46,541 nucleotides of DNA from Pseudotabrizicola algicola (GTDB taxonomy: Bacteria; Pseudomonadota; Alphaproteobacteria; Rhodobacterales; Rhodobacteraceae): contig NZ_JAAIKE010000015.1 of assembly GCF_010915705.1 (NCBI RefSeq), forward strand, positions 1 to 46,541. The letters are read 5' to 3'. A model generated the notes under the pieces. The model saw nothing but the letters and a program-made list of their open reading frames with translations. It made no database searches and had not been told where the DNA came from. Shown here piece after piece: positions 19,530 through 35,151 of the stretch; positions within the stretch are counted from its first letter, which is position 1; every line of letters begins with the position of its first letter. The position numbers and the translations under genes were made by a program.

Positions 19530-19850
19530 GGCAGCATCACCCTTGGCGCCAATTATGCCACCACGCTGCGTCGGGTAATCCTGCCGCTGATGGGGCCAGC
19601 CATTCTGGCGGCACTCACCTATGCCTTCGTGCGTGCCATCACCTCGGTTTCCGCCGTTATCTTCCTGGTTTCGGCGCGCCACAACATGGCGACCAGCTTC
19701 ATCGTCGGCCGGGTGGAAAACGGCGAGTTCGGCATCGCCATCGCCTATGCCACGGTGCTGATCTTCACCATGCTGGCCGCCATCCTTGCCCTGCAACTGA
19801 TTATCGGTCGCCGCAAACTGCGCCGCACCGATCGTATCGAAACCCACTGA
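19530..19850 (+). pseudogene. ABC permease (iron/putrescine/phosphonate type), C-terminal fragment
   Basis: About 107 codons of a permease that is normally 260-600 aa long remain. The EAA loop (SITLGANYATTLRRVILPL) and the last two membrane segments (AILAALTYAFVRAITSVSAVIFLVS and AYATVLIFTMLAAILALQLIIG) are clear, with MATSFIVGRVENGEFGIAIAYA between. Similarity begins at about 19530 with no start codon or ribosome-binding site. It abuts the truncated histidine kinase head to head. The intact ATPase gene follows 12 bp later, so the original operon was binding protein, permease, ATPase. Confidence 0.82.
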
Positions 19851-20912: not shown

Positions 20913-21120
20913 GCCGGCGCGCCGAAATGGGGGGAGCGGAAACCATAAACCGCAACCTTCGCCGCATTGCCGTCAGGCTGTCGCAGGCGAGGGGCAGGAC
21001 ATGAAGACGGGGCTACCCGCAAAAATCGGATAGTGACGGGGTCTACGATCCGTAAACTGATGCGGTGGATGCCCCCACGCCGACGGCATCACTCATGCCA
21101 TCATGGTTCCATCGGATGCA

Positions 21121-21263
21121 TGTAAAAAAGGCATAAGAGTGCACACCCCTTAAAAAAACCCGATTTTTCACCATTAAGGCGTTGAAATCATTGTATGATT
21201 TTAGGGGCGACCGCGCAGGACCTTATAAGCACGCACACTTGGAAGCATAAACGTGCACACCCC
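21121..21263 (+). repeat. Left end of the Tn7-like element with three TnsB-type repeats
   Basis: TGT at 21121 is followed by repeat L1 (GCATAAGAGTGCACACCCC, from 21132), L2 (ATAAGcacGCACAC, 21225-21238) and L3 (GCATAAACGTGCACACCCC, 21245-21263), all in the same orientation pointing inward. L1 and L3 differ at two of 19 positions, and L2 keeps the ATAAG-N3-GCACAC frame. An AATCAT-TGT-ATGATT palindrome lies at 21186-21200. Confidence 0.75.
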
Positions 21264-21276
21264 GGGCCGGCAAGCA

Positions 21277-21304
21277 AAAAGGCCCGCACGAGGCGGGCCT
21301 TACG
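21277..21304 (-). terminator. Rho-independent terminator of the tnsA-tnsB-like pair
   Basis: AAGGCCCGC-CTCGT-GCGGGCCTTTTT (minus strand) directly follows and overlaps the TAA of the TnsB-like gene. The stem is 9 bp and perfect with a T-run. Its position shows that the short TnsB-like frame ends at a properly organised gene end. Confidence 0.85.
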
Positions 21305-22202
21305 ACAGAAAATCGCGGGGGTTATCGGTGCTGCCTTTGCCGAGCTTGCGCTTCGTTTCCCGCAGGCCAAGCTTTGCGACCATGATTTCAGTCGGCGTCA
21401 ATTTGGCCTCGATCTGGGCCTTAATCGTTGCCGGAGATGGAACCTGCAGCAGCGGAAGCTCGTTCCGGCCGCAAAATTCGTTGATACCCTTGATCTCGTC
21501 TTCGACCGCTTTGTGCACGTCAGCAATGCGGCCGTCGGTCAAGTTCAGAAAGTTTTCCGGGGTGTTGCGATCGATGATTTCGCGGACATCAATAGACACC
21601 CTGTCTACCCGGTTTCCCTTTAGGTGCGTCCGGGGGATCAGGGCATCTCGTGGATCCTGTGTTGGATCGAGGCCTTTGAAGACATTGTAGTATTCCATCA
21701 GGGTGCGACCCTGATAGAGGAACAACCGCTTGCTAAATCCGCCGCGCGCCGGTTTTGTTAAGACAGTCTCGCCCAAGCCTTTCGATGTATGCTCTGCAAT
21801 GAACTTACGAGCCTCGGGCTTGTCAGCGCCACGAATGGACAAGCGAAACAACTCTTTGCCGGGCTCTTGGCGCCGCTGCTCCTCATAGGCCTTCATCGCC
21901 AGACAAAACGCGACATGGAAATCGGCCATTTTCCGAGCATCTTCGCTCAACGCCTCGCAAGACTCGAAGCCATCGAGCCGAACAGTCGTAGCGGGCTGGG
22001 CATCCAAACGTGGCGCGATCAACTTTGCGCCCGGCAGATTGAGCTGCGCAACAAGCTCCCCATAGCCCAGGAAAGAGGTGAAATCGTCGCCGACACCCTG
22101 GATGTAGTAGCCACGATCATCTTGACCGGTGACAATGACATTTCGACGCGAAACCGACACGATCGTGCCGGGAGCCAAATTATAGCGCGGTTGGAAAGTC
22201 AT
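21300..22202 (-). CDS. TnsB-like (Mu-type transposase) N-terminal DNA-binding protein lacking the DDE domain
   Basis: This is a 300-aa protein. The N-terminal segment (YNLAPGTIVSVSRRNVIVTG, RGYYIQGVGDDFTSFLGYGEL) is the small beta-rich domain that opens many TnsB/TniA-type transposases, and it is followed by helical DNA-binding regions (LGETVLTKPARGGFSKRLFLY, MEYYNVFKGLDP, KLTPTEIMVAKLGLRETKRKLGKG). In full-length relatives the catalytic DDE integrase fold starts right after such a segment. Here the frame stops 12 residues later and a terminator follows. The frame is open and coupled to the TnsA-like gene by ATGA, so it looks maintained. It could still bind the end repeats 40-180 bp downstream of its own stop. 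The assignment rests on pattern recognition by eye. Confidence 0.65.
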   Translation of the reverse strand: MTFQPRYNLAPGTIVSVSRRNVIVTGQDDRGYYIQGVGDDFTSFLGYGELVAQLNLPGAKLIAPRLDAQPATTVRLDGFESCEALSEDARKMADFHVAFCLAMKAYEEQRRQEPGKELFRLSIRGADKPEARKFIAEHTSKGLGETVLTKPARGGFSKRLFLYQGRTLMEYYNVFKGLDPTQDPRDALIPRTHLKGNRVDRVSIDVREIIDRNTPENFLNLTDGRIADVHKAVEDEIKGINEFCGRNELPLLQVPSPATIKAQIEAKLTPTEIMVAKLGLRETKRKLGKGSTDNPRDFLS

Positions 22203-22981
22203 GCTGCCGCCTTAACCCGCGAATTTTCCCAGAGGAGGTTGTCGAGGTTTGCCTTCAAATATCCCTTGGCCACCAAGCGATGGCACGCTGCAAACATCCG
22301 CTTCTGGGGCATCTGAGCCAACGCAAACAGGTCTTTCATAAAATAGAAGGACCGACCGGAGCGAACGACGTCGAGAAGATGTTCATCCGCCTCGTCATCG
22401 GGATTGAAGATGAAGTAATGCATCAATGCGAGGTTGCGGCACCGCTGGCGGCTGAAGTCGTCGCCATTGACGACAATCATGTCGTTAGCCACTTTTTTTG
22501 GCAGGGCCATCTTGATCGCGTCAAGTTCCCGCTGCGTTGCAGTCTTTGACAGGCTGTGTCCATTCCGGACGTAGATCAGACGGCGATAGCCGCTGCGGAA
22601 GGTCACCATCAGATCAAAGGTGTGAGTGCGATTTTCTCCATTCGGTCCTTTGAATTTGACCTGCAGGGGCTGAAAGTGAAGGTCAAAGGTTTTCGGTGAG
22701 ATCAGGATCTGCAAAGCAGTGCCCGCCTCCGGCTCACTTTCAGCAATACCGACTTTCAGCTTCCACTCGTTAGCAGCGGTCCGATAGGGCAGAAAAATCT
22801 TGTGAGAGACAGACGAGCGGCTGCTGGGATTGCGCACGCCGTCAAAAGGCAGAACGCCATGAATGTCCCCAAGTTTCAGCGCGCTCGCTTTCGGCAGCTT
22901 CGGAGGTGCGTAGTTCCAGCTGTCATGGTCGAAGACCATGTCGTCGATGATATATTCAGACTGCTTCTTGGGCTTGGGCAT
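22199..22981 (-). CDS. TnsA-like endonuclease-family protein with atypical active site
   Basis: This is a 260-aa protein read as TnsA-like. The core ALQILISPKTFDLHFQPLQV leads to HTFDLMVTFRSGYRRLIYV. This matches the TnsA fold, in which a Glu, an Asp (the HTxDF position, here HTFDL) and a Gln/Glu-x-Lys triad cut the 5' strands of the transposon. The Lys motif, usually VxVKP or ExK, is IYVRN here, and the first acidic position is not obvious, so cleavage activity is doubtful. The C-terminal part (QMPQKRMFAACHRLVAKGYLKANLDN) resembles the winged-helix half that contacts TnsB/TnsC. The start at 22981 has GAGG upstream, and the gene overlaps the TnsB-like gene by 4 bp. Confidence 0.6.
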   Translation of the reverse strand: MPKPKKQSEYIIDDMVFDHDSWNYAPPKLPKASALKLGDIHGVLPFDGVRNPSSRSSVSHKIFLPYRTAANEWKLKVGIAESEPEAGTALQILISPKTFDLHFQPLQVKFKGPNGENRTHTFDLMVTFRSGYRRLIYVRNGHSLSKTATQRELDAIKMALPKKVANDMIVVNGDDFSRQRCRNLALMHYFIFNPDDEADEHLLDVVRSGRSFYFMKDLFALAQMPQKRMFAACHRLVAKGYLKANLDNLLWENSRVKAAA

Positions 22982-23004
22982 CTGGTGGCCTCACGGTGTC
23001 CGAA

Positions 23005-23028
23005 GTCCCGGCCGGCATTGGCCGGGAC
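23005..23028 (-). promoter_or_regulatory. Perfect inverted repeat upstream of the TnsA-like gene
   Basis: GTCCCGGCC and GGCCGGGAC form a 9-bp perfect stem with loop GGCATT, 24-47 bp upstream of the TnsA-like start. It may be an operator or a leader hairpin. Confidence 0.4.
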
Positions 23029-23763
23029 CATTCTCCTGGCCGCGTGGAAGCAGGGCCCAAAAGGACCTCGAGCATTCACTGCGGCGGACGCTCGCCCGAT
23101 CTGTTGGCGCAGATGGAGCAAGTCGTCTGATCAAGAAGGAGGACAGGAAACCTTGCCTTGAGACGCAGACTCTGCTACCCATGGCATGATTGCGGGAGGT
23201 TCCTATCTGCCTTCCTTGAAGCACCTGATCCGTTGGCGCGGATCGGGTGTTTTACTTTTGGGGATATCCCCGGGTTGTTCATGCCCTGCGGACACACAGC
23301 AAACCCACACTGTCAATGCGCGACGCTTGGTAATTGCCCCGCTATTCTGGGGCGCCATCGGCATTCGCAGAGCGCTATGCGGCCACTGGGTGGCAGGAAA
23401 TTGGTTCTATTCCGTCAGTCTGTCCTTTCATGTGAAATCCCGTTTGGTCAGCAAACGAGGTCGGCGGTAGCAAGCGAAGGCGCGGCGATCAAGGATAAAG
23501 TTTTACCCAAGTCACTGATAAAAAACACATCTTTGGATTTTCGCACAACGCCCGTTACCTCCCACTATGGCCGTTTCCCCTTCCCCGGTCGTGGTTTGCA
23601 ACGGACGGACCTCCCTGAGCCACGACTTCTTCGCAAAATCCACGGCGGCGCCGACGTCCACGAAACATGCATCTTTCTTTCTGCTGCCAGCAGGCATGGA
23701 GTATCATAGCGCCAAAGCACTGGCGGTTTTGGCAGGTTTGCAATGTGACGATTCGCAGAAGGT
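23029..23763. other. 735-bp stretch with a plus-strand terminator but no recognised gene
   Basis: I see no convincing protein gene here. The strongest element is a plus-strand terminator at 23222-23249: CACCTGATCCG, loop TTGGCG, CGGATCGGGTG (11 bp with one G-T pair), then TTTTACTTTT. A strong AAGGAGG occurs at about 23135 without a usable start behind it. The terminator has no upstream protein gene on its strand, so a small RNA reading from near 23030 is possible. Open frames between 23510 and 23760 on both strands have weak coding character; one on the minus strand (MPAGSRKKDACFVDVGAAVDF..., 23512-23697) is the best but resembles nothing I know. Confidence 0.4.
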
Positions 23764-24438
23764 TCAGTCTTTTGGGGGCGCTATCAGCTTTGCGAGATCC
23801 ACCAAAAGCTCCTTGGGAATTTGACTTATGGCGCGGTCGCGGCGTTTGCTGCGCTTTTCCTTGGGGCCCAAAAACGAAACATTATAGAAAACGCTGCCTG
23901 ACCCACCTTCGGACGGCGCGACCCGGGCCCTGATGCCGGCTGCCGGCCGCGTGGGAAAGATATCGACTTCCAAAAACTCGAGCAGCGGATCATCTGGACC
24001 AGCAAGTTTCTCAAGGATGGCCGCGAACGTATCGTCAAACTTGGCGGCAAGCGGCAACCGCTGAAGCAACTGGTTCACCTCGATGGCCGCAAAGGCCCCT
24101 CCGTTCGAGGTCAATAGCTGGCTGGCCGTAAGATCAACAGATCCTTGCCCAAGCATGAAACCAATGTCTGGATCGACTTTCCAGACCTCTGCGCCAATCA
24201 GGTCGAGATCACCGAGCGCCCCCATCACATGGGGTGTCTCTTTTGGACCGATGCCGCAAATCAGTGGAATGGCGTGATACGTCAGATCCTTTGCGGTGAT
24301 CTGTGCAGCACCTGCACCCCGGGGAGACTTGTCACGCAGGCCATGGTCAAGCAAGCGCAGGCCGATGTTCTTGACCGCCGCGACCGGGACCTCGAACTCT
24401 TCCGCCAGGTAGATGTGCGCTTCGCCAATGGTGGCCAT
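23764..24438 (-). CDS. Unrecognised protein with HTH-like N-terminus, cargo of the Tn7-like element
   Basis: I do not recognise this 224-aa protein. The N-terminus (MATIGEAHIYLAEEFEVPVAAVKNIGLRLLDHGLRDKS) reads like a helix-turn-helix that could bind DNA, and the element-type phrase AAQITAKDLTYHAIPLICG suggests helical packing after it. The C-terminus is lysine/arginine-rich (GPKEKRSKRRDRAISQIPKELLVDLAKLIAPPKD). There is no signal peptide or membrane segment. The ATG at 24438 is preceded by GGAGAG; an in-frame ATG at 24510 is possible. An A+T-rich stretch upstream (24450-24620) probably holds its promoter. It could be a regulator of the island or part of a defence system. Confidence 0.6.
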   Translation of the reverse strand: MATIGEAHIYLAEEFEVPVAAVKNIGLRLLDHGLRDKSPRGAGAAQITAKDLTYHAIPLICGIGPKETPHVMGALGDLDLIGAEVWKVDPDIGFMLGQGSVDLTASQLLTSNGGAFAAIEVNQLLQRLPLAAKFDDTFAAILEKLAGPDDPLLEFLEVDIFPTRPAAGIRARVAPSEGGSGSVFYNVSFLGPKEKRSKRRDRAISQIPKELLVDLAKLIAPPKD

Positions 24439-24733
24439 GATCTGCTCTCCGACTATGGCCTTAGTGTTAAATTTTTTCGCAAACTGAGTCAACCCGTTAA
24501 GTTTGCGCAAAACCTATCGACAATGAAAAAACGCACCAAGCTCGGTATTGAAGGACTATCGCAGCATCGCTTGCCAAATACAAAATATCTTAAATATTTG
24601 AAATAAAACAATATTTCACCGACCCGCCTTCGGAACAGAGCCTGCCCTGGGCTTCCAGCTTGTCAGCCAGACTGTCCTCGCAGAACTTGGCATAGATGGT
24701 CAACGATGCCCGTCGCATGGAGTGCTTGACGCG

Positions 24734-25510
24734 TTACATGCCATATTCGAGCTTTGGGAAGTATTCCTTAAACGATGCATCGCGCGCTGCATCGATGAAC
24801 CCTCTGACTACTTCGACGGGCGACGGCGCATGATTTTCAGTGACCTCAAGAATAGCTGCTAGAATGATATTCAGTTGCGCGATCCGATGATCCAGCTTTC
24901 CCTTAAGCTCTACCGGCACCATGTCAGCGGCTGCTAGGCCTTCAAAATTTCGTATCACGCCGGGAGTGGTGTCAAGCCAGTTCTGCATCTCGGCATGACG
25001 ACGACCATATTCTTCAACAAGGCTAATCAGATGAATGGCACCGGATTCCAAGTCCTCGATTTGCCCAACCACCTCAAAGTCCTTCTTGGTGAAAAGGAAC
25101 GAATACTCAGTCGACTTAAGGCGCTCTGGTTCAACAAATTTTCCTGGGATCGCACCCACCATCTGAGAGGGATCCGTTACCCTGAGACCGATCGCATTGA
25201 CGTTGGCAACGCCCTCATCAATCGCATTTTTGACCGCATAGATGATGTTTGCGTAACGCGAAATCTTGGAAAACGTGGCTAGCGCCATGGCGGCATCAGC
25301 CTTCATGGCGTCAACGTTGCGCTGGTTGCGCTCTGCCCGGATAGTGAGCCACAAGATCAGGAGCGCGACAGCAGCAGAGCCGATGGTGGCAAGACCAGCG
25401 GCAAGGACTTCAACCCAAGGGAGGCCTTCATCGGCCTTTTCAACAGGGATGATGAACAGGGAAACACGGCCATTGAGCTCAGTTAGCAATCCGATGAAGC
25501 CGTCCAACAT
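24734..25510 (-). CDS. Unrecognised membrane-anchored protein, island cargo
   Basis: This is a 258-aa protein of unknown family. Residues about 32-57 (WVEVLAAGLATIGSAAVALLILWLTI) form one clear membrane helix, followed by a positively charged edge (RAERNQRNVDAMKADAA) and a long, mainly helical soluble domain with coiled-coil character. This layout, one anchor and a cytoplasmic helical domain, is frequent in small effectors of phage-defence systems, but the sequence gives no specific match. The gap of about 140 bp to mcrC and the same orientation leave co-transcription open. A short minus-strand frame just downstream (about 24604-24718, MRRASLTIYAKFCEDSLADK) may be a gene remnant. Confidence 0.6.
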   Translation of the reverse strand: MLDGFIGLLTELNGRVSLFIIPVEKADEGLPWVEVLAAGLATIGSAAVALLILWLTIRAERNQRNVDAMKADAAMALATFSKISRYANIIYAVKNAIDEGVANVNAIGLRVTDPSQMVGAIPGKFVEPERLKSTEYSFLFTKKDFEVVGQIEDLESGAIHLISLVEEYGRRHAEMQNWLDTTPGVIRNFEGLAAADMVPVELKGKLDHRIAQLNIILAAILEVTENHAPSPVEVVRGFIDAARDASFKEYFPKLEYGM

Positions 25511-25649
25511 CCATCAACCCCTTGAAACCACGGTTAGTCGAACTTCATTTGTGCCGTCCATTGGACGCCGCCCGAAGTAGATGGCGACACGGCTAAATCA
25601 CCCTCAGTAACGGCATGTCGCAAAAATGCCGCTACTGGTGAGTGAAACG

Positions 25650-26705
25650 CTAGATCAATCTTCGAACGCTTTGCTCAAATTGCACCGGATCACTTGAAAG
25701 ATCGATCGTCTTGAACTGCATCTGATGCCCCTGAATTATCACCAGCTCATCTATCGATCCGCCCGTTTGGGGATGCAGCAACATGCCCGACGTAGTCAGG
25801 CTGGCGGGGTCATCAAGACGCTCCTGACTGCGCAGGTAGGCATAAAGCTGGTAGATGTAATTGCTCTTGAGAATCTGATCTCGGTAGGCCGAAGCCGCAA
25901 AAATCGCAGTAAATTTCGTGTCGATCACGATGCGTCGCCCCGTGGCAGGGTGTCGAAGGTCGATATCGGTCTGCATTCCCGGCAGGATAGCCGCAATTCC
26001 GGGAGACGCAGCTTCGATCTGCCAAGCAAGGCGCTTGCCCTGTGTCACGTTCCAACCCTGAGGTTGCAGCTCAAGGCGCAGGGCGTTTCCGATAGCCCGC
26101 TCAAACAGGCGCCGAACGAGGTGTTCGGTGCTGTCAGGCAGAGCACCAGAAACAAAGCCAGCCTCTTCTGTCGGGATGATCGTGTCGAACACCATCCGGG
26201 ACAGCGCCACCATAAAGCGATCAGCGGTCTCGTTCCTGCCAATCTGATCGTTTGCGAGTTCAGCCCAAGACGGGCGCGCACCGACAACCCCAAGTCTCGT
26301 GAAATCTCCGGCCAGTTGCCGGCACCGATGCGCCACCAGTTCATCCGAAACCCGGCTGGCGAGCCGTTCCAAGGCAGCCCTGACCAATCTGTTTCGCGCC
26401 GTGTCCATCGTATGCTCTTCGAAGCGACAGGCGATGCGGCCGCGGTCCATCAATTGACGCGCCGTCGTTTCCAGCATGTCGATCCGACCGCGCACCCTTG
26501 AAAGGGTAGCTACTTTCGGGCGGTATCCACGAGAAAGGTTTCGGCGAAGGCGCTCTTCAACGACTTGCCCCAAGAGCCGCGCAACCAGCTCAGGAAGGTC
26601 GCGTGCAGCTTCGACCTGATGGTCAAAACGCCCTTTGAATTGCACCAGATCGGCCGCGTAAAGGAACAACAGCCAGACATTTCGCAAGGGGATCGCTGTA
26701 GCCAT
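25650..26705 (-). CDS. mcrC: McrC-family nuclease subunit of a modification-dependent restriction system
   Basis: This is a 351-aa partner of the McrB GTPase. The N-terminal helical part (IPLRNVWLLFLYAADL) is typical of McrC. The PD-(D/E)xK nuclease core is visible as MQTDIDL (D247) and RRIVIDTKFT (D262, K264), followed by QLYAYLRSQ. It is the DNA-cutting subunit and acts when McrB translocates after recognising modified cytosines. The start at 26705 overlaps the ancestral McrB stop (TAATG), so the two are coupled. All catalytic residues appear present. Confidence 0.92.
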   Translation of the reverse strand: MATAIPLRNVWLLFLYAADLVQFKGRFDHQVEAARDLPELVARLLGQVVEERLRRNLSRGYRPKVATLSRVRGRIDMLETTARQLMDRGRIACRFEEHTMDTARNRLVRAALERLASRVSDELVAHRCRQLAGDFTRLGVVGARPSWAELANDQIGRNETADRFMVALSRMVFDTIIPTEEAGFVSGALPDSTEHLVRRLFERAIGNALRLELQPQGWNVTQGKRLAWQIEAASPGIAAILPGMQTDIDLRHPATGRRIVIDTKFTAIFAASAYRDQILKSNYIYQLYAYLRSQERLDDPASLTTSGMLLHPQTGGSIDELVIIQGHQMQFKTIDLSSDPVQFEQSVRRLI

Positions 26706-28512
26706 TACAGGCCTGCACGAAGTGCCTGCGCCGCTTGCCTTGCTCGGTCTGGAGCATCAAACCAGTATTCCTGCAGCAGCGGTTCGATCTCGGTGTCGAT
26801 GACTTCTGCAAACCATGCCCTGGGGTCTGGGATGTCGTCATCGCTCGGCGTGACATAGGAATGGCCAACGCGAAACTGTGGTCCAAGGCTCGGTCTTCCG
26901 CGATGGTGTCGTTCAGCGCCTGCATCCGATCACGGATCAAGGCCGTCACGTCATCTGAGAAATTCCTGTCACGGCACCAATCCTGCCAAGCCTGATTGAG
27001 CAAGGGTTCAAGCGTTACGAAGGCAAATCTGCGGCGCAGGGCAAGATCCACAAGTGCGAGGGACCGATCCGCGATGTTCATCGTGCCGATGATATGCAGG
27101 TTATCGGGCACGTGGATTTTCTCGCCCGGGATCTTGCGATAGGCCAGCTCCATCGCATCCGCCCGGCTGCGCTTGGTATTCTCCAAGAGCGTCAACATCT
27201 CCCCGAACACCTGCGCTGGATTGCCCCGGTTGATTTCCTCAATGATCAGGACGTGCGGCAAGTCGGGCTGGGCGCGCGCGGCCTCAACCACTTGCAGGAA
27301 AATGCCGTCGGTCAACGTCAACCCTGTGCTGGAAGGGCGGTAGCCCCGCACAAAATCCTCGTAAGAGAGTGACGGGTGAAACTGGACGGAGCGCAGTTGA
27401 TCCGGCAAGGGCGATTTGCGCCCGATTAAGGCTTTCGCCAATCGCTTGGCCAGCCATGTTTTTCCCGTTCCCGGCGGCCCCTGCAGGATCAGGTTTTTCT
27501 TGGATGACAGGCGATCCACAAGACCGGATAGGGTATCACGACCGAGAAACCCGCCCTCGTTGATGATGTCATCCACCGTGTAGGGCAGGATTTCCGGCAC
27601 AGGGATATTGTCGTCTTCTGCGGCGTCCTCAGCTTCACTTGCGCTCAAAGGGTCGATCTCAGGGGCAAAACGCTCTGCCCAATAGGAATGGCCCAAGAAA
27701 TAGCCGTAATCCTGTTCGGCGCCGTCGAAGGTAAACGCTACCAGCTTCCTTGCCATGTCATCATCTTCTACTCGGGCACGGGCAACGGTTGTGCGGTAGG
27801 TGTAGAAATACCAGTCTTTTGGTGGATCAAGCTCTTGCCAGTCCACCTCGACTGTCAGCCCATCACCGCGGTTGGCGGTGATGGTGCCAATGGCTTTGAT
27901 ACGCATCACGCTGGCGGCACGGCCGTGGTTTTCGAACGGCACCTCGTTTTTCCGGGTGAACGACGCTTTGATGGCAATCCGGTCGCCGGCCTTCATCTGC
28001 CTGACGAGCTTTGAGAATTTGTCCTCGTAGCCGTTTTCCCAGATGCCCTCTTTCAAAAACCGATCGGTCTGATCCCCATTTGACCATGATGCGCCGACAA
28101 ACCAGTGGTTCACCCCTTCAGGCGCGATGTCATCCTTGGGAGCAACCTGTTCGTCTTCGTCGCCAGCAAAATTGACCCGGGCTGTCTTGAAGATTTCGGC
28201 GGCCCACTCTGGCGACAGCTCCGCCTTCCACCCCCGATCAGACAGCCCCCAAACACCACGGCTGGGCGAGGTCATGATACCTGCCGTGAACAGATAAGAT
28301 CGGGCGAAATGGACCCTGTTCTCGAACTTCGATCCACCGTTCTTGTTGGCGAGAGCCAGAAAATCTGCAGAGATCTGGTGCCGCTTGATCAGTTCATCGA
28401 AGATTTGGCGCGGTCGAGCCTGGCCACCGAGGTCGCGCATAATCTCGACCACAGGCACGAAGTAGCTGACAAACTGAGGGACCCCCTCGATTTTCTGCTC
28501 ATGCAGTCCCAT
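26705..28512 (-). CDS. mcrB: McrB-type AAA+ GTPase with winged-helix and EVE domains, frameshifted near the C-terminus
   Basis: This is the motor and recognition subunit. Residues 10-110 are an Mrr-type winged helix (VPQFVSYFVPVVEIMRDLGG). Residues 135-270 are an EVE domain (NHWFVGASWSNGD, FSKLVRQMKAGDRIAIKA), which binds modified bases. Residues 320 onward are the McrB AAA+ core (LQGPPGTGKTWLAKRLA, VLIIEEINRGNPAQVFGEML, GTMNIADRSLALVDLALRRRF). Near 26883 the frame slips: adding one G (TTGGACC to TTGGGACC) restores GPQFRVGHSYVTP and a sensible end at TAA 26707-26705, overlapping mcrC. Uncorrected, translation runs on to 26623 with about 80 foreign residues. This is either a recent mutation or a sequencing error. 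The start follows GGGGGG. Confidence 0.9.
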
Positions 28513-28593
28513 GGCTACCCCCCAAGCTTATCGCATATGGGCAGACTGGCATCTTTATCCTTGATGGCCAAGGGCTTGTATTTCAGATACAAC

Positions 28594-28985
28594 TGGCGTT
28601 GTTGCAGAACGCTTGCCTGAGGCATAACAGCTTCTTTCCCCGTCTGGATCAAGCCAAGCGGACGATCTTGGCGGTGCCGAGTGCGTTTAAGCGGTTGATG
28701 AGGGCGACGCGGATCTGGATTTCGGCGGTCTGGCTGTCGGGGTGCCTTGCGGCGATGCGCTCACCAAAGGCTTTCAGGCACCGCATTTTGGCCTCGATCC
28801 GGCTTCGGGCATGGTATCCGGTCCTGCGCTTCCAGAACGACCTGCCGTAGTGTCGGGTGGCACGCAGGTTTTCGTTTCTGGCGACTGCGGCTGGGCAGCC
28901 GTCATTCCAAGGTCGGCCGTTCTTGCGGATCGGGATGATCGGGGTGGCCTGCCGGTGGATGTCAGCCCATACTGGCCATCCGACA
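28594..28985 (-). mobile_element. IS5-family insertion sequence remnant (3' part of transposase)
   Basis: The frame from about 28985 to the TGA at 28649 reads FYNHVGWPVWADIH, IPIRKNGRPWNDGCPAAVARN, ATRHYGRSFWKR and IEAKMRCLKAFGERIAARHPDSQTAEI, ending RFNALGTA-like (RLNALGTAKIVRLA). This is the C-terminal part of an IS5-family DDE transposase. An IS-end-like GGCGTTGTTGCAGAACG lies at about 28594. The N-terminal half is absent and the left break is near 28985, so it is a dead fragment separating McrBC from the reverse transcriptase locus. Confidence 0.75.
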
Positions 28986-29102
28986 TGATTGTAGAAATCG
29001 GCGGGTTTGAGCCTCCAGTGTCGAACTTATTGATTGAAGCGATGTGAAAGAAATATCGCCCCTCTTGACCATATCGCGCTGCGTCACCACTATATCTGGT
29101 AT

Positions 29103-29235
29103 GTCCATGGTCGCCATGGCGTCCGACGTGAAGCTGGACCTGTCCATGCGGATCGTGCGCCACGGAGACCTCGCCAAGGTGGCTGTTGCCGCTGAGGTGT
29201 CTGTCGTAGCGGCCATGCCGTGCGCAGAGGATGGG
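29103..29235 (+). repeat. 133-bp direct repeat, copy 1
   Basis: This segment (GTCCATGGTCGCCATGG ... GCGCAGAGGATGGG) is identical over 133 bp to 29464-29596, in the same orientation as the downstream reverse transcriptase gene. In one frame it reads SDVKLDLSMRIVRHGDLAKV with high GC3, so it may be protein coding or derived from a gene. The copies are 361 bp apart, start to start. Confidence 0.95.
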
Positions 29236-29463
29236 CTGGGCCTGACCGTTGGCTTTGAAGCTGTGAATGCTCCGTCTTCCGACGGCCTCCAAGCAGCAGA
29301 TAAGCATTCAAAACGGCGGGCGCGGCCGGGGCGAAACGCGCTTGACGTCACTAAAAACCTGCTAAGGTGGAAGGTGGAGAAATGTGTGAACTTGCCCCGA
29401 AAAACCGGCTCGCCTGGGCTGGATTACCGGTGCGCGCGGAGTTTTGATCGCGCTCGCCGCAGC

Positions 29464-29596
29464 GTCCATGGTCGCCATGGCGTCCGACGTGAAGCTGGAC
29501 CTGTCCATGCGGATCGTGCGCCACGGAGACCTCGCCAAGGTGGCTGTTGCCGCTGAGGTGTCTGTCGTAGCGGCCATGCCGTGCGCAGAGGATGGG
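29464..29596 (+). repeat. 133-bp direct repeat, copy 2, adjoining the reverse transcriptase
   Basis: This is identical to 29103-29235 and ends 49 bp before the likely start of the reverse transcriptase. The two copies bracket a 228-bp spacer (29236-29463). The perfect identity implies a recent duplication or active homogenisation. Confidence 0.95.
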
Positions 29597-29645
29597 TGTT
29601 CGTCAACGGTCGGGATTGTATGAGCGGAGGACCCGAGCGAAGAAC

Positions 29646-30992
29646 ATGGCGAAAACATTATTCGAAGAAGTCAGAAGTGAGCAAAACATCTTCTCAGCTT
29701 GGCGACACGTGAAGCGGAGCGCTTTAAGCTCGGGGAACGCCGATATTCGCGGAAAAGCCGCCGAGTTCGAGCATGTGCACCAACGCCACCTTAAGCGCAT
29801 TATTGATCAGCTGCGCACTGGCAAGCTCTCCTTCGATCCTGTCGAGGGCGTCTTGAAAGACAAACGTAAGCGCCTTGCAGCAGGTAAAGACCCACGACCC
29901 ATTGCAATATCAAGCATCCAGAACCGTGTTGTGCAGCGAGCAATCCTACAGGTTCTACAACCAAGGCAGGCGCGTGACCTGCGCGACCCGGACACACGAT
30001 ATGAGACGATTCGCGACAACAGGCTGGGTCGTATCAATGACGTCAACCGATCTAAGTATGGCGTTGGAGGACTAATCTACCCTCATGGCGGCGTTCGCCC
30101 TGCCATAGAGCTAATCATGGCAGCAATCGACAGCGGGGCGAAATTCTATTTCCAGTCCGACATCCGGGCCTTCTTCACTAAGATCCCAACAGACAAGGTG
30201 GTTGACTTCATTCGGCGAGAAACCGAGGACGACGCATTCGTTGACCTGTTTGCCAAGGCTCTTGAAGTTCACTTGGGAAATGAAAATGAGCTTGTTGGCT
30301 ACACGCATCTATTTCCGAAGGGCGGAATTGGCGTTGCGCAGGGGTCCTCTCTTTCGGCCTTCGCAGGAAATGTGTTGCTTTTCGACATGGACCAACACTT
30401 GAACACCATGGGCGTGACAGCGGTGAGATACATCGATGACATTCTCATGGTCGGCGCAGACCTTGCATCTATCGACGCCGCCAAAGCATATGCTGAGAAA
30501 ACCCTAACCGACTTTGGTTTCGGTCTCTATACGCCGGCAGACGGCCCCGAAAAGGCATCACAAGGCGAGTGCAGCAAATCCATCAACTTCCTTGGCTGCA
30601 CACTACAGCCCAAGCGGTGTGTCCCCAGTGCGAAATCTATCGACAACATGAAGGAAACCGTCCGAGAGACGCTTTCCGCTTCCAAGGCTGCGATCAAGGA
30701 CGCGCTCATCAAGGGAACATCTCTAAACTTCAAGCATTCACATGGAGCCACTTTAGATTCTTTGGGAAGACGCATCCATGGATGGCAAAATTCCTTCGCC
30801 TTCTGCAATCAACGTCAACCCTTCGAGCACCTCGACGACTACGTTGCGCATCAGATCGCAGACTACCACGCCGTTATAATTCGGCACCTTGGGAAGGTAG
30901 ATCATCGGATCAAGGCGATGATACTTGGCGTGCCTTCAACAGCAGATATGTTCGACCACACGCGCAAAAAAGCTGCCAAACAATCATGTTGA
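29646..30992 (+). CDS. Reverse transcriptase, unassigned group (possibly an antiviral DRT-type RT)
   Basis: This is a 448-aa RNA-directed DNA polymerase. RT motifs appear in order: RPIAISSIQNRVVQRAI (RT2), YFQSDIRAFFTKIP (RT3, catalytic Asp), GIGVAQGSSLSAFAGNVLL (RT4), YIDDILMVG (residues 262-265, catalytic Asp pair) and SINFLGCTL (RT7). There is no maturase (GIIM) or HNH domain, so it is not a group II intron protein. The retron VTG motif is not seen, nor a variable-repeat pair of the diversity-generating type. The lone, about 450-aa architecture inside a defence island suits the unknown-group/DRT class. The ATG at 29646 (MAKTLFEEV) is chosen; an ATG at 29592 lies inside the repeat. Duplicated 133-bp repeats precede it. 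Confidence 0.85.
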   Translation: MAKTLFEEVRSEQNIFSAWRHVKRSALSSGNADIRGKAAEFEHVHQRHLKRIIDQLRTGKLSFDPVEGVLKDKRKRLAAGKDPRPIAISSIQNRVVQRAILQVLQPRQARDLRDPDTRYETIRDNRLGRINDVNRSKYGVGGLIYPHGGVRPAIELIMAAIDSGAKFYFQSDIRAFFTKIPTDKVVDFIRRETEDDAFVDLFAKALEVHLGNENELVGYTHLFPKGGIGVAQGSSLSAFAGNVLLFDMDQHLNTMGVTAVRYIDDILMVGADLASIDAAKAYAEKTLTDFGFGLYTPADGPEKASQGECSKSINFLGCTLQPKRCVPSAKSIDNMKETVRETLSASKAAIKDALIKGTSLNFKHSHGATLDSLGRRIHGWQNSFAFCNQRQPFEHLDDYVAHQIADYHAVIIRHLGKVDHRIKAMILGVPSTADMFDHTRKKAAKQSC

Positions 30993-31140
30993 GGCTGCTG
31001 CAGGCTCGTAAGCTTTCTGAGCTATGCGGTCGTTAAAGGGGCGTAGCGAGCGACAACTCACCACCCAAACCGCTGCCGCTCGTAAGTCAAACCGAGGCCC
31101 GTGCGCGATCTCCGAATGCCCAGCAGGCACCCCATCAACA

Positions 31141-32223
31141 TCACTGCACCCACGGCCGCTCCTCCAGTCCTTCCCCCCGCTCCAACGCCCGGATCACATC
31201 CCGCAGACTCAATCGCCGCCCCAACACTTTGGGCGCACGATCAAGGACCTCAAGGATCGCCTCCACCCCGAGATCTGACAGTTCCATCTTCTGGCCTTGC
31301 GCCTTTGCAAATGCGCTCAACTGCACCGGCGTAATATCCGGCAACTGGATCAGCTGGCACCGGCTTCGCACAGTCTCCGGCACTTTATGAACGTCGTTTG
31401 CGGTCATGACCCAGACGATGTGGGACATGTCGAACCGCAGGCGGAAGTAGGGGCATTCCCATTCGGCCGAGGTCGCTGGCTCGATCAGCGACAAAAGGGC
31501 GTCGGCAAAGGAAAACCCTGTGCCGTTCGTTGATGTGCCGCGCTTGGCCTTGCAGAGCTCGTCCACGATGATGACTGGGTTTGCAATCCGCCTGCCGAGA
31601 ATGAGGTCCAGCGGCCGCCCGGCGAGAGCCGTGCCCCATCCGCGATCCAAACCGCATAGCGCGAAACCCGCGCCGCCCTTTGAGGCATCAATGTCCGCGG
31701 TCGGCACGGACAGAAACTTGGCCAGCTTTCGTGCCCAGACCGACTTTCCGATCCCCGGCGGGCCGTTCAGGATCACTGGCCGCATGCGGATGGCTTCACC
31801 GCGACGGGCCGCGCGCCGCAGGGCGTGCCAGGCATATTCCGTGGCGGGGCCCATCCATGGCATGTCGGCATGCAGTTCGGCCGCAACCTCATCCGCCCAA
31901 TGCTCGGTTTTCACCATTGCTAGATCAACGCCCTGCAACACAGTCGTAATGCGCGCCAGCTCATCCTTTTTCAGATGAGAGACGCCGGCATAAGCCGCCT
32001 GCCGATCTGCCAGCAGACCCGCCCGGCGTTTGACCTTCTTTGTATCGTCATAGGTGATGGGCGTGCCCTTCACCATCGGCTCGGAGTCATCTTCATCCTC
32101 CCATTCCGCGCGGGCAGGCTGTCTGGGCAGATCACGCAAGCGGCGCAGGGTGGCCATAAGGCGCGCTTCGATTTTGGTGGCATCTTGAAAAGGGGGCACG
32201 TCGACGAATTTGATCCGCGTCAT
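31141..32223 (-). CDS. Lon-like AAA+ ATPase without protease domain
   Basis: This is a 360-aa protein whose central part is a Lon-type AAA+ module. It has Walker A LNGPPGIGKSVWARKLA, Walker B PVIIVDELCK, an insert with sensor I region MSHIVWVMTANDV, an arginine-finger region PETVRSRCQLI, and a lid with LGRRLSLRDVIRALE as sensor II. The Lon substrate domain and Ser-Lys protease domain are absent. The first 100 residues are charged and unlike Lon. It lies divergently from tniQ across 271 bp and could be an ATPase for target choice in place of TnsC, or a remodeller belonging to the reverse-transcriptase cargo. Neither is shown by the sequence. Confidence 0.8.
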   Translation of the reverse strand: MTRIKFVDVPPFQDATKIEARLMATLRRLRDLPRQPARAEWEDEDDSEPMVKGTPITYDDTKKVKRRAGLLADRQAAYAGVSHLKKDELARITTVLQGVDLAMVKTEHWADEVAAELHADMPWMGPATEYAWHALRRAARRGEAIRMRPVILNGPPGIGKSVWARKLAKFLSVPTADIDASKGGAGFALCGLDRGWGTALAGRPLDLILGRRIANPVIIVDELCKAKRGTSTNGTGFSFADALLSLIEPATSAEWECPYFRLRFDMSHIVWVMTANDVHKVPETVRSRCQLIQLPDITPVQLSAFAKAQGQKMELSDLGVEAILEVLDRAPKVLGRRLSLRDVIRALERGEGLEERPWVQ

Positions 32224-32244
32224 CGGTGAGGTTCCATATCCGGC

Positions 32245-32472
32245 ATGTCTGGCTGGGACGGGTCAGGCTTGGCTTTGGCCAAGCGAACGGACCCGGTCCC
32301 GGTGGGAGACTGGTCAGTCAGCCCGTATGCGGCGGATATGAAGATGCGCGGTCATGTTCCTTGGCTATTCTGGACCGACCAGACCGGTCAAGCCCCCCTT
32401 TCGAGGGGGCAGCGAGCATCTACGCCGGATCCTTCATATCTAGGCAGAGACGGAAGCTGCGGGTATCACTGA
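32245..32472 (+). CDS. Possible small protein in the AAA-tniQ divergent gap
   Basis: This 75-codon frame (MSGWDGSGLALAKRTDPVPVGDW...GSCGYH) has no known relative and no good ribosome-binding site. The same stretch holds inverted repeats that may be the real content: GCTTGG-CTTTG-CCAAGC-like at 32268-32285 and GCCCCC-CTTTCGA-GGGGGC at about 32391-32409. It may be only a leader or promoter region for the divergent genes. Confidence 0.2.
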   Translation: MSGWDGSGLALAKRTDPVPVGDWSVSPYAADMKMRGHVPWLFWTDQTGQAPLSRGQRASTPDPSYLGRDGSCGYH

Positions 32473-32494
32473 CAAAAATGTTGAGACGTTTCTC

Positions 32495-34249
32495 ATGAAG
32501 ACCACGGATTTGCTGCCCGTAAAGATGCCTCGTCCGGCCCATCGGGAAACGGTCTTCTCGTTCCTGTCGCGTTGCGCGGCCACATGGCAGACAACCACCC
32601 GTCAGTTCGCCTACGACATCGGCACATCGCTGAAGTTTATCGCGATGCAGAACGAAGTGACGCTCCGTCTGTTCGCAGAGCGGACCAAACTCTCACCCGA
32701 AGACCTCGCTGAACTCATGTCCTGGACCGGGGAGAAGATCGGCAATGTGAGGATGCGCTTTCGCGAGGAGGTTTTCGTGTCTCGTGCACTGCGCAACCCG
32801 GATGTGCAGGGCTGCCCGATGTGTCTGCGCGAGGATATTGCAGCAGCCGATACGTCCCCGACAGCGGTCATGGTGATGCGGGGGAATTGGCTGATGCGAG
32901 ATGCTGTGCTTTGCATCCGGCATGGCCACCCTTTGGTAACGCTCTGGTCCGCAGTCAAGGTCGACGCCCGATATGATATCGGCGCGAATCTGGAGGCGAT
33001 CATGCTAGACCTGCAAGCTGGTGCCTTCGACCGCCCTCGGCAGGAGCCGTCACCCTATGACCTGTGGCTGGATCGGCGGCTGGAGGATGGAACGGACTCG
33101 ACGGCCCTCAAGGACCACGGGCTGTTTGCTGCCACCACCTTCTGTCGATACCTCGGGATGGCCCGTCTTGGCGTAGACATAGGTCCGGATAAGGAGCGTG
33201 CGGGGGCGTTTCTCGCAGCCGGGTTTGAGATTGCGGCGCAGGGTGCATCCGCAATCCGGTCCGAGTTTGATCGGCTGGCCGCGCGGGCAACCGAACCAAA
33301 GCAAGGGGCAAAAACTGCCTTTGGCGAACTCTACAGCGCCCTTGGCCAGCTCTATACCGATGACCCCGGTTTCACGGCCTTCCGGATCATTCTTCGAGAC
33401 TGCATTCTGGACCACTGGCCCTATGCCCCGGGCGAGCTGCTTCTGGGAGAACCGGTTCTTGTGCGGCGCAAGCATTCCGTCAGTTCCGCTGCTGAAGAGA
33501 TCGGGATCGGGCAAAAATTGGTCCGGCAGTTTCTAATCGAAGCCGGCGCGGTCCAGCAGTATGACCCACGGCCAGACGCGCGGCTGATCTTTGACGCCGA
33601 ACAGAACAAGGCTCTGCTCGCCGAGATCCCGACCTTGGTCGGCCCCATCGCGATGCAAGACGCAATGGGCGCCACCAAGATGGAATTGATCGCGTTGGAG
33701 GAAGAGGGGCTGCTTGCTCCACGAACCCGGATCCCTTCCGTCAAGAACGTCTGGCGGATCGCCGATGGTGAGGCACTCGTGGCAAAGCTGCTGGCGCGGG
33801 CCGCGAGGGTTGCGGCCGACGACCCGTCTTGGGAAACGCTCCTTTTGGCGCGCAAGCGGACAGGTATCGGCCTTGCAAAGATGGTGCACGCCATTGATGC
33901 CGGTTCCCTCGATGTTGGCGCAAGGCAAGGCGTTGCGGGGTTCCATGGCATCGTGGTGCGATTGGAACAGCTCGCGCCCTTGATTGCAGCCAAAGAAGCG
34001 CCGGACCCGACAGAGGGCGGCAAGTTGCAAAGCGCCGCGGCCTTTGGCCGGTCCATAGGACTGCGGGATAACCGCAGCTTTGCGGCGCTGATGGATGCGG
34101 GTCATGTCCCGGCGAAAGCGCGCCTCCACCCCGGCACCAAGCGGATGCAATACTGGATGGACGAGGCCGACATTGCCGCCTTCACCGCCCGCTTTGCCAC
34201 GCCATCCATGTTGATTGCAGAGACAGGATTGCACCGAAACACGATCTAG
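32495..34249 (+). CDS. tniQ: TniQ-family target-selection protein with in-frame amber near the 3' end
   Basis: This 584-aa TnsD/TniQ-type protein normally recognises the insertion site and recruits the transposase. The N-terminal TniQ domain (HRETVFSFLSRCAA) contains the zinc motif C107-P-M-C110 with C140-IR-H143, followed by the DNA-binding C-terminal half with several repeated helix-turn-helix-like units (ARLIFDAEQNKALLAEIPTL, MQDAMGATKMELIALEEEG, AAAFGRSIGLRDNRSFAAL). After the TAG at 34247 the same frame continues with a natural-looking tail (SMLDAARVEPFAPNGKDFGA) up to TGA at 34396, so about 48 residues are cut off. Its 3' end faces the right element end and the tRNA-Arg gene, the presumed target. 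Confidence 0.85.
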   Translation: MKTTDLLPVKMPRPAHRETVFSFLSRCAATWQTTTRQFAYDIGTSLKFIAMQNEVTLRLFAERTKLSPEDLAELMSWTGEKIGNVRMRFREEVFVSRALRNPDVQGCPMCLREDIAAADTSPTAVMVMRGNWLMRDAVLCIRHGHPLVTLWSAVKVDARYDIGANLEAIMLDLQAGAFDRPRQEPSPYDLWLDRRLEDGTDSTALKDHGLFAATTFCRYLGMARLGVDIGPDKERAGAFLAAGFEIAAQGASAIRSEFDRLAARATEPKQGAKTAFGELYSALGQLYTDDPGFTAFRIILRDCILDHWPYAPGELLLGEPVLVRRKHSVSSAAEEIGIGQKLVRQFLIEAGAVQQYDPRPDARLIFDAEQNKALLAEIPTLVGPIAMQDAMGATKMELIALEEEGLLAPRTRIPSVKNVWRIADGEALVAKLLARAARVAADDPSWETLLLARKRTGIGLAKMVHAIDAGSLDVGARQGVAGFHGIVVRLEQLAPLIAAKEAPDPTEGGKLQSAAAFGRSIGLRDNRSFAALMDAGHVPAKARLHPGTKRMQYWMDEADIAAFTARFATPSMLIAETGLHRNTI

Positions 34250-34472
34250 AGCATGCTGGACGCTGCCCGAGTCGAACCGTTTGCGCCGAACGGAAAGGAC
34301 TTCGGGGCGGTCTTCCTGCGGTCTGACCTCGCCAAAGTGCCGCAGTTTTCGTCGGCCGCCCTCATTTCAGGGCCAAAACCGGGGAAAAACGGCTGAATCC
34401 CGCCCCGAATGGGCCTGAATAAAATACATAATAATTTCAATTACTTGATACTCAACGGACAGGCAGGATAAG

Positions 34473-34527
34473 GGGGTGTGCTATTCAAAAGTGCCATTTC
34501 GTGCACTCTTATGCTTCTTTGGCAACA
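34473..34527 (-). repeat. Right end of the Tn7-like element
   Basis: Read inward from ACA at 34527 (TGT on the minus strand), the end carries GCATAAGAGTGCAC at 34514-34501, identical over 14 bp to left-end repeat L1. A second, weaker site has GGGGTGTGC at 34473-34481, matching the GCACACCCC half of the left repeats. The interval from the tniQ tail to here (34397-34472) is AT-rich and shows no gene. Confidence 0.75.
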
Positions 34528-34537
34528 CGCAAGGAAA

Positions 34538-34614
34538 TGGCGATCGCGGAAGGACTCGAACCCTCGACCCGCTGCTTAGAAGGCAGCTGCTCTATCCAGC
34601 TGAGCTACGCGACC
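34538..34614 (-). tRNA. tRNA-Arg (anticodon UCU)
   Basis: A full cloverleaf reads on the minus strand: acceptor GGTCGCG / CGCGATC with one G-T pair, D-arm GCTCAGCTGGATAGAGC, anticodon arm CTGCCTTCTAAGCAG with TCT at the centre, T-arm GAGGGTTCGAGTCCTTC, discriminator G and an encoded CCA. The length is 77 nt with CCA. Its 3' end faces the Tn7-like element, whose right end lies 10 bp away, making this the probable attachment target. The gene itself is intact. Confidence 0.97.
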
Positions 34615-34686
34615 GTTGTCTTCTATGTGCGCGAAATGCGCGGATTAGACAAGATGCCAGTGGGCCGGCCCCCGCCGCAAAGGGAA

Positions 34687-35151
34687 TCAGAGCAGGCTGC
34701 GGGTCATGAAGACCGAATTGGGGTCCTCGACATAGCCTTCAAAGGGTGGACATTCGACAAAGCCCGCATTGGCGTAAAGCGCGCGCGCCGCCACAAAGGT
34801 GGGCTGCACCCCGGTTTCGAGCGACAGGCGCGTGAACCCTTCGGCACGGGCGGCATCGACAAGATGTTCCAGCATCCGGCGCGACAGGCCCCTGCCCCGC
34901 ATCTCGGCCAGCACATGCATCGACTTGATCTCGGCATGGCTGTCATCGATGCGCTTGAAGGCCCCCATGCCAATCGGCTCTCCCTCTTCGCGCATCACGA
35001 AAAACCAGATCCCCGCCCCGGCAAGCTGGCTCGCATCCATCATATGGATGCTTTCGGGCGGGGTATCGGCATGCATGTCGGCGGTGTGACGCTGCATCAG
35101 CAGCGAAAGGTCTGGGCCAAGCGGCGATTCCAGCGCGATGGTGGGGATCAT
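34687..35151 (-). CDS. GNAT-family N-acetyltransferase
   Basis: This is a 154-aa acetyl-CoA-dependent acetyltransferase. Strand 4 and the pyrophosphate-binding turn are clear: EIKSMHVLAEMRGRGLSRRMLEHLV, where RGRGLS corresponds to the Q/RxxGxG/A motif. ARALYANAGFVECPPF near the end is the usual GNAT beta6-alpha4 region, and PPFEGYVEDPNSVFM is a frequent ending of YhhY/PhnO-like GNATs. The substrate is unknown. I use the ATG at 35151 (MIPTIALESPLGPD); upstream codons to 35253 lack GNAT similarity. It stands alone between the tRNA and the kinase operon. Confidence 0.88.
   Translation of the reverse strand: MIPTIALESPLGPDLSLLMQRHTADMHADTPPESIHMMDASQLAGAGIWFFVMREEGEPIGMGAFKRIDDSHAEIKSMHVLAEMRGRGLSRRMLEHLVDAARAEGFTRLSLETGVQPTFVAARALYANAGFVECPPFEGYVEDPNSVFMTRSLL

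Follow-up and report, generated by a model that had tools for sequence, protein, structure and literature searches.

The window analysed here, a 46.5-kb stretch of DNA from a Rhodobacteraceae host, contains an element adjoining a transfer-RNA gene, and this 13.4-kb region is very probably what a deletion has left of a tRNA-homing Tn7-like transposon whose family is found mostly in Rhodobacterales. Between paired ends at positions 21121 and 34524 are genes for TnsA and an intact TniQ, together with an N-terminal fragment of TnsB. The matching ends, TnsA, TniQ, the position beside tRNA-Arg(UCU), and a family-wide tie among TniQ, this type of right end, and tRNA 3' ends support descent from a Tn7-like element. 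The core of the cutting enzyme is missing, and autonomous movement has thus probably been lost; the best reading is an immobilised, rearranged remnant that carries McrBC, reverse transcriptase, and Lon-like ATPase genes. A sequence-only reading of the window had proposed a mobile defence island beside the tRNA gene. Its Tn7-like ancestry and tRNA-directed insertion held up, whereas "mobile" had to be dropped, as the TnsB catalytic domain and TnsC are gone from the window, there is no target-site duplication, and the left flank has apparently been rearranged. Since neither a near-identical copy nor an empty site was found in the genomes compared, that the region inserted as a unit is something we only infer.

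Element ends, target tRNA, and flanking DNA

The ends form an exact inverted pair, as had been noticed from the sequence alone: GCATAAGAGTGCAC occurs at 21131-21144 (+) and at 34501-34514 (-), and a third copy, at 21245-21258, differs from it by 2 mismatches. When up to 2 mismatches are allowed, chance would give 0.15 matches to this motif, and three matches were obtained in 0 of 100 shuffles. The paired arms reach 20 nt at 90%, and the exact pattern GCATAANNGTGCAC has three sites in the whole assembly, all of them at the element's ends. On the left, the tip is followed by a terminal TnsB-site-like repeat (TGTAAAAAAGGCATAAGAGTGCACACCCC; 21121-21149, +) recognised by repeat matches, then by a second, weaker one read from the sequence (TTATAAGCACGCACAC; 21223-21238, +) and by a third (GCATAAACGTGCACACCCC; 21245-21263, +), which contains the 2-mismatch copy; left ends of relatives have a similar layout, with one terminal site and two close inner sites. 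The right end (34471-34524, -) was matched from model position 1 (E = 3e-7) by a profile built from the right ends of other loci (25 of the 37 that have a tRNA no more than 500 bp away), without the window's own; the left end matches this profile weakly, at 21129-21145 (E = 0.096). The element therefore appears to carry multiple repeated putative TnsB sites, three of them at the left, and a right end that fits the family profile. The left tip stays at 21121, but alignment to the 25 other loci moves the right tip from the 34527 given earlier to 34524, and the interval to the tRNA 3' end (34525-34537) is therefore 13 bp rather than 10 bp.

The target tRNA-Arg(UCU) gene (34538-34614, -) was called by ARAGORN and Rfam (RF00005). 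Beside the right end, just past the tRNA 3' end and where the sequence-only reading had placed it, lies the gene for a TniQ target selector of 584 aa (32495-34249, +; Pfam PF06527, E = 6.7e-15, 56.4 bits versus 27), which aligns to its relatives over the full length. A search for other elements sharing the end repeat and TniQ, proposed alongside that reading, found a related TniQ encoded at 68 loci (a TniQ tree was built from 46 of these plus the window, excluding those interrupted by stops or shorter than 450 aa). At 37 of the 68, a tRNA gene lies within 500 bp of tniQ, 210-446 bp after the gene, and all 37 are antiparallel to tniQ with the 3' end toward it (25 Arg-UCU, 8 Arg-CCU, 2 Gln, 1 Met, and 1 Trp). 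The end motif starts 20-29 bp after the tRNA in 25 of the 37 and is absent at the usual distance in the other 12, with no match in 9 and a match at another distance in 3. A tRNA was present only at 2-2.9 kb in 3 of the 68 loci, and none was present within 3 kb at 20, each with more than 1 kb of sequence after tniQ; L240, L250, and L251, whose TnsA proteins are among the closest, have no tRNA by tniQ. Because the right end matches the family profile and a facing tRNA 3' end accompanies 37 of the 68 loci, tRNA-directed insertion by a Tn7-like element, suggested earlier for this TniQ, is well supported by sequence comparison at the level of the TniQ family. Under this mechanism, TniQ would bind the tRNA gene and then recruit TnsC and TnsAB, and insertion would have taken place some 13 bp beyond the CCA, the TniQ end facing the tRNA. 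In this mostly Rhodobacterales set, the tRNAs beside related TniQs are of five types, and the end and its spacing are similar in many cases; tRNA choice by TniQ is therefore directly testable by protein swaps between close relatives.

Integrase-type islands usually target tRNA 3' ends, and the region could in principle be an ordinary island of this kind whose end repeats arose by chance. This is extremely improbable: no tyrosine or serine integrase was found among the nine element proteins scanned, none of the 20 largest repeat families includes a direct repeat in 20900-34700 that matches the tRNA end, the ends, TnsA, and TniQ recur jointly in relatives, and the right-end profile match contradicts it.

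The bases beside the tips are ATGCA (21116-21120) and ACACG (34525-34529), in agreement with the earlier observation that this copy has no 5-bp target-site duplication. A direct repeat is present at the tips in five of the six relatives with both ends read (four elements tested at the outset, all with the repeat, and then two more with both ends on one contig); it starts at the left tip and ends at the right tip, in one case 2 bp short. L240, L241, L250, and L251 fell outside this test, as no right end was identified after their tniQ. The exception, G446, has a right end that is not beside a tRNA; this copy is therefore not alone in lacking a duplication. On the right-hand side of the tRNA, collinearity holds for about 10 kb in six of eight same-genus genomes. 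On the other side, the DNA differs among same-genus genomes, and the empty-site comparison against all eight consequently gave no clean join. The transporter gene in the left flank has a different location in related genomes and lies 296 kb from the tRNA in G135. One large simple deletion between the transporter gene and the tRNA is disfavoured, since G135 DNA lying 4.8-6.4 kb beyond the transporter persists in the element's own genome on a separate contig, C24; it is therefore likelier that the left flank was rearranged, an event that would have put other DNA next to the left end.

Transposition genes and mobility

Two of the genes that the sequence-only reading had left unnamed among its "unknown genes" belong to the transposition core. 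The first encodes a TnsA-like endonuclease (22199-22981, -), recognised by 54-55% identity to TnsA of elements that have TnsB and TnsC, among them L240 from Pacificibacter marinus, L245, L250, and L251; its match to Pfam PF08722 is under the cut-off (E = 0.011). Of 38 genomes reached via 40 of the 68 TniQ loci and searched for TnsA, 18 had a match. The second gene, which overlaps the first by 4 bases, encodes an N-terminal TnsB fragment of 300 aa (21300-22202, -) whose alignment to full TnsBs covers their residues 1-293 and which ends at residue 300, just before the DDE domain. The best PDB match of its predicted fold is Tn7 TnsB (7pik), although the match is weak (E = 2.3e-3, TM 0.18). Queries for the DDE domain gave no match within the window, and neither did two TnsC queries. 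In contrast, matches to both DDE and TnsC were obtained in all 20 relatives that have the TnsB N-terminus and sufficient sequence after it (TnsC is partial in L125 and L250, and the DDE is split in L249), but these 20 TnsBs are not all independent, seven being >90% alike. The stop of the TnsB fragment is followed by an intrinsic-terminator-like hairpin (21274-21301, -), read from the sequence, and then by the left end; the same layout, with a very similar hairpin, follows tnsC in L251. After insertion, an internal deletion of ~2.4 kb, a size estimated from that of the relatives' corresponding sequence, would have taken the TnsB catalytic domain and TnsC. The outcome would be a stranded island, able to transpose only if cognate TnsB and TnsC came from elsewhere.

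The deletion, the left junction, or both might instead come from misassembly of a complete real element. This is a draft genome of 29 contigs, and the left flank joins loci that are far apart in relatives, but the stop, terminator, and left end stand in natural order and the end motif has no second copy that a misassembly could have merged, which makes an assembly artefact quite improbable. The TnsB fragment could also be a kept regulator, a non-catalytic end-binder silencing the element or excluding relatives from its tRNA. It ends at a domain boundary, with a clean stop and a terminator, and its frame is open over 300 codons; against this, it is a single case, the DDE sequence is present in 20 of 20 relatives with room for it, and the McrB of the same element is broken too. 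We regard such a role as quite improbable, and hold the same low expectation for a "lock," in which an end-binding, catalysis-free TnsB would be kept because it pins the defence island and blocks sister elements competing for the site.

Somewhat less improbable, though still unlikely, is a non-autonomous yet mobilisable element that has kept its ends, TnsA, and TniQ and is served in trans by the TnsB and TnsC of a related Tn7-like element. The full-length TniQ alignment and the right end's fit to the family profile would suit it, and relatives carry related elements in tandem (e.g., L243, L245, L246, and L249), showing that elements of this kind meet in one cell. A search of the assembly with a TnsB profile, however, found no second TnsB of the element's family, the sole match being the fragment itself; the end motif has no second copy in the assembly; and the TniA-TniB-TniQ set on contig C16 of the same genome is of another kind. 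PF09299 had given three matches in the genome, but that model missed the two TnsBs of the element's family that were scanned, and helper transposases were therefore sought with the TnsB profile. Read as a deletion remnant, this copy clearly illustrates how a Tn7-like element can strand its cargo after losing its transposase core.

Cargo genes

The McrBC, reverse transcriptase, and Lon-like ATPase genes named in the sequence-only reading are all present by Pfam or NCBIfam matches. McrC (25650-26705, -; NCBIfam NF007277, 339.9 bits versus a cut-off of 338) is accompanied by an McrB-like AAA+ protein with an Mrr_N domain (26623-28512, -), which falls under the cut-off of the McrB model and whose 3' end is frameshifted near the gene end, as read from the frames. 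A defence island is a plausible description of this candidate cargo, though McrB is frameshifted. The reverse transcriptase (29592-30992, +) is nearest to group II and UG17-like reverse transcriptases (Pfam RVT_1, E = 1e-9; PADLOC RT_UG17, E = 4.6e-34) and is under the cut-off of TIGR04416. A repeat search placed one copy of a 133-bp direct repeat at the start of its open reading frame (29464-29596) and a 100% identical copy at 29103-29235; no known RNA family matched there, the repeat was seen at this locus only in a genus search, and its folding gave a z of -2.8. The remnant of an IS5-family transposase (28600-28961) is about 80% identical in DNA sequence to annotated members of that family. 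Two further open reading frames encode a 248-aa protein with no family match in protein scans (23764-24510, -) and a 258-aa protein, probably membrane-anchored judging from its sequence, with matches under cut-off (24734-25510, -; E = 0.04 or worse).

The Lon-type AAA+ ATPase (31141-32223, -) lacks a protease domain. It was first suspected of being a fifth core gene because in seven loci (L023, L242, L243, L244, L246, L248, and L249) a homolog immediately precedes tnsA in the same orientation. Many genomes, however, have strong homologs at a distance from the tnsA places identified, which marks it as a frequent passenger and thus as cargo. Nor has it taken the place of TnsC, as both genes are present in elements such as L242.

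Relation to known Tn7-like elements

Tn7-like elements that home to tRNA genes are already known, mostly beside CRISPR systems, in the available text of the sources cited here. In the excerpts of PMC11406308 and PMC10293859, which cover relatives of I-B2 and I-D CASTs, a TniQ-family protein (TnsD/TniQ) likewise selects the tRNA gene, insertion is likewise just downstream of the tRNA 3' end, and members differ in the tRNA used. TnsA and TnsB are fused in the I-B2/I-D lineage according to the excerpt of PMC11406308, whereas they are separate genes here, and CyCAST is placed 30-33 nt from the tRNA in the portion of PMC10293859 available, compared with 10-19 bp for the right tip in the window and four relatives. 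Unlike the I-B2 and I-D CASTs, this copy has no TnsB catalysis, TnsC, or Cas effector genes among the proteins scanned. Apart from a TniQ model, scans of nine proteins for Cas effectors gave nothing beyond cross-hits due to shared folds: McrB was hit by Csx3-AAA models and the reverse transcriptase by Cas1-RT and CRISPR-RT models. No CRISPR array-like repeat family was present among the 20 largest repeat families.

A TniQ protein is also common to Tn5053-type TniABQ elements, but the C16 set of this genome is not closely related. With Tn7 itself (attTn7, TnsABCD), the element has in common TnsA, TnsB-type end repeats, and a TniQ/TnsD target selector; Tn7 targets glmS rather than a tRNA, and this copy is without TnsC, the TnsB DDE domain, and the 5-bp duplication. 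The complete transposase core of the defence-cargo Tn7-like elements described in the available part of PMC8649781 is missing from this remnant, but those elements likewise carry restriction and reverse-transcriptase genes as cargo, and the same text names tRNA-downstream positions as safe sites.

Ends and insertion site of the element

The two ends carry exact inverted copies of GCATAAGAGTGCAC (21131-21144 and 34501-34514), bearing out the matching end repeats proposed in the sequence-only reading; a near-copy forms a third site at 21245, and the inverted arms reach 20 nt at 90% identity. The 4.49-Mb assembly, a draft of 29 contigs of which the window is contig C7, contains exactly three matches to a degenerate pattern of this repeat, all of them in the window. 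We also built a right-end profile from 25 relatives, leaving out the window's own right end; it matched the window at 34524-34471 (E 3e-7), and the best match in reversed controls had an E value of only 3.4. The tRNA-Arg(UCU) gene lies at 34538-34614 on the minus strand. One genome of the same genus (L072) holds a weaker right-end remnant 26 bp from the same tRNA (E 0.034), and another (L076) has a TniQ that is 53% identical at this tRNA.

As had been noted earlier, no direct repeat is present at the tips of the window element. Six relatives have both ends readable on one contig; four show an exact direct repeat at both tips (TATTG, ATTAT, CAAAG, and the 8-bp TTCAGTCC), and one has a CACTAT repeat 2 bp off the right tip. 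In the sixth, from genome G446 (L242/L162), the two element ends share no duplication and no tRNA adjoins the right end; this element encodes a full TnsABC, with tRNA-3'-like sequence outside its left end.

Of eight same-genus genomes, six keep the gene order of the window on the right-hand side of the tRNA. On its left-hand side, the eight have one 482-bp match in common, and only 1.3 kb in locus L073 and the TniQ of L076 match the window. The transporter gene that flanks the element on the left sits elsewhere in related genomes (in G135 it shares a contig with the tRNA but is 296 kb away), and the DNA 4.8-6.4 kb beyond it in G135 is found on contig C24 of the window's own genome; the left border is therefore probably a rearrangement point. 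A separate deletion seems to have affected the left flank, since the histidine-kinase-like and transporter genes touch at 19530-19536 and are parted by about 5 kb in relatives.

Truncated TnsB and probable loss of the transposase core

The 300-aa protein has no Pfam match; it aligns with the N-terminal 293 residues of the TnsBs of related elements (about 730-790 aa), and alignment to full TnsBs shows that it ends immediately ahead of the DDE domain. A structure prediction (mean pLDDT 75) gave no PDB match with E below 0.001, and the best, though weak, was Tn7 TnsB (7pik; E 2.3e-3, TM 0.18); the TnsB identity therefore rests on sequence alignment.

Twenty of the 28 related loci with a TnsA match have a TnsB N-terminus with room downstream. 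Every one of these matches both DDE and TnsC queries; the DDE match is split in L249, and L125 and L250 match TnsC only in part. The 20 are not independent cases, because seven of the TnsBs are more than 90% alike. Among the other loci, L025 has a DDE match directly after a short N-terminal match, so its TnsB looks internally deleted; L036 is cut by a contig end; L023, L124, and L138 run off the contig; and in L129, L135, and L137 TnsA sequence is present but TnsB was not matched. Neither a DDE nor a TnsC match was found in the window, and a TnsB profile search of the whole genome returned the fragment as its sole match. A TniA-TniB-TniQ set of another kind is present on contig C16 of this genome (L139).

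In relatives, tnsC is followed by a terminator and then the left end, where a pair of closely spaced sites accompanies a single terminal one. In the window, a terminator nearly identical to that of the related locus L251 and the same left-end layout follow the TnsB fragment just as they follow tnsC in relatives, which points to one internal deletion, estimated at about 2.4 kb from the size of the missing part.

The ends, genes, and place of the element can be read directly from the window. By analogy with Tn7 and its relatives, TniQ would have bound the tRNA gene, TnsC would have linked TniQ to TnsAB at the ends, and the element would have inserted with its tniQ side facing the tRNA. As it now stands, it should be unable to transpose alone; the earlier description as mobile is not supported for the window copy by itself, as the DDE domain and TnsC are absent from the window.

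Gene content and cargo

From left to right, the element encodes the 300-aa protein, a TnsA-like endonuclease, two unknown ORFs, McrC, McrB, an IS5-family remnant, a reverse transcriptase, a Lon-like AAA ATPase, and TniQ. The sequence-only reading had listed McrBC, the reverse transcriptase, the ATPase, and TniQ correctly, leaving the 300-aa protein and TnsA unnamed. The TnsA gene is 54-55% identical to those of L240 (Pacificibacter marinus), L245, L250, and L251, all of which also have TnsB and TnsC. McrC scores above its NCBIfam cut-off; McrB loses its reading frame near the 3' end (26623-26900), with a C-terminal stretch in another frame. The reverse transcriptase is closest to UG17-like and group II enzymes (best plasmid relative, 31% identical), and the AAA protein corresponds to the AAA module of Lon, lacking the protease. 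The McrBC, reverse transcriptase, and AAA cargo may serve in defence.

Of 19 loci inspected, 7 have a homolog of the Lon-like gene (31141-32223) directly next to a gene for ribonucleotide reductase (L261, L267, L269, L271, L272, L274, and L276; one neighbour checked by Pfam), and other homologs adjoin tnsA, so it seems to be an edge gene in several kinds of island. Two identical 133-bp direct repeats, 361 bp apart, lie at 29103-29235 and 29464-29596, immediately upstream of the reverse transcriptase; the repeat has a fold z-score of -2.8, matches no Rfam family, and is absent from 15 other genomes of the genus.

Related elements and their tRNA targets

TniQ matches were found in 39 of 198 genomes drawn evenly from the host family, and TnsA matches, many distant, in 43 of 394 genomes. 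A search of named genomes with six TniQ sequences yielded 68 loci, mostly Rhodobacterales by record titles (exceptions include L186, L194, L200, and L203). In 40 of them, ARAGORN placed a tRNA no more than 3 kb beyond tniQ, always on the strand opposite tniQ with its 3' end facing the element. For 37 of the 40, the distance is 210-446 bp (Arg-UCU, 25; Arg-CCU, 8; Gln-UUG, 2; Met-CAU, 1; Trp-CCA, 1). Eight of the remaining 28 loci have only 1 kb or less of sequence after tniQ; the other 20 have more than 1 kb and no tRNA within 3 kb. Three of these 20 have an apparent tRNA 3' part adjoining the right end (L198, L202, and L205) and three abut the end of another element (L175, L188, and L190); neither feature accounts for the site in 14. 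Of these 37 loci, 25 carry the motif GCATAAG.. starting 20-29 bp beyond the tRNA, and it was their right ends that went into the profile; 3 match it at another distance. The motif was not matched in the remaining 9, several of which have ends of a different sequence.

The two Gln users form a fully supported group in a tree of 47 TniQ proteins. The tRNA targets have probably changed over the family's history, since Arg-CCU users are divided between two parts of the tree and the Met user sits within a clade of Arg-UCU and tRNA-less members.

Elements are stacked at one site in L243, L245, L246, and L249, where 2-6 bp separate one element's left end from a second element's right end, which in L243 is of another type. 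Among the closest TnsA relatives, L240, L250, and L251 have a TniQ with no tRNA nearby, and in L240 and L251 a right-end-like sequence instead borders the left end on its outer side.

We found no account of this Rhodobacterales set in the literature, which is weak evidence because coverage was partial. Two papers describe tRNA-targeting TnsD/TniQ in I-B2 and I-D CAST relatives (PMC11406308, PMC10293859), and a third reports that Tn7-like elements generally use sites downstream of tRNAs and carry defence cargo (PMC8649781). The family around the window element is more useful than the element itself, which, set against Tn7-like elements, is a damaged copy of an already known kind.
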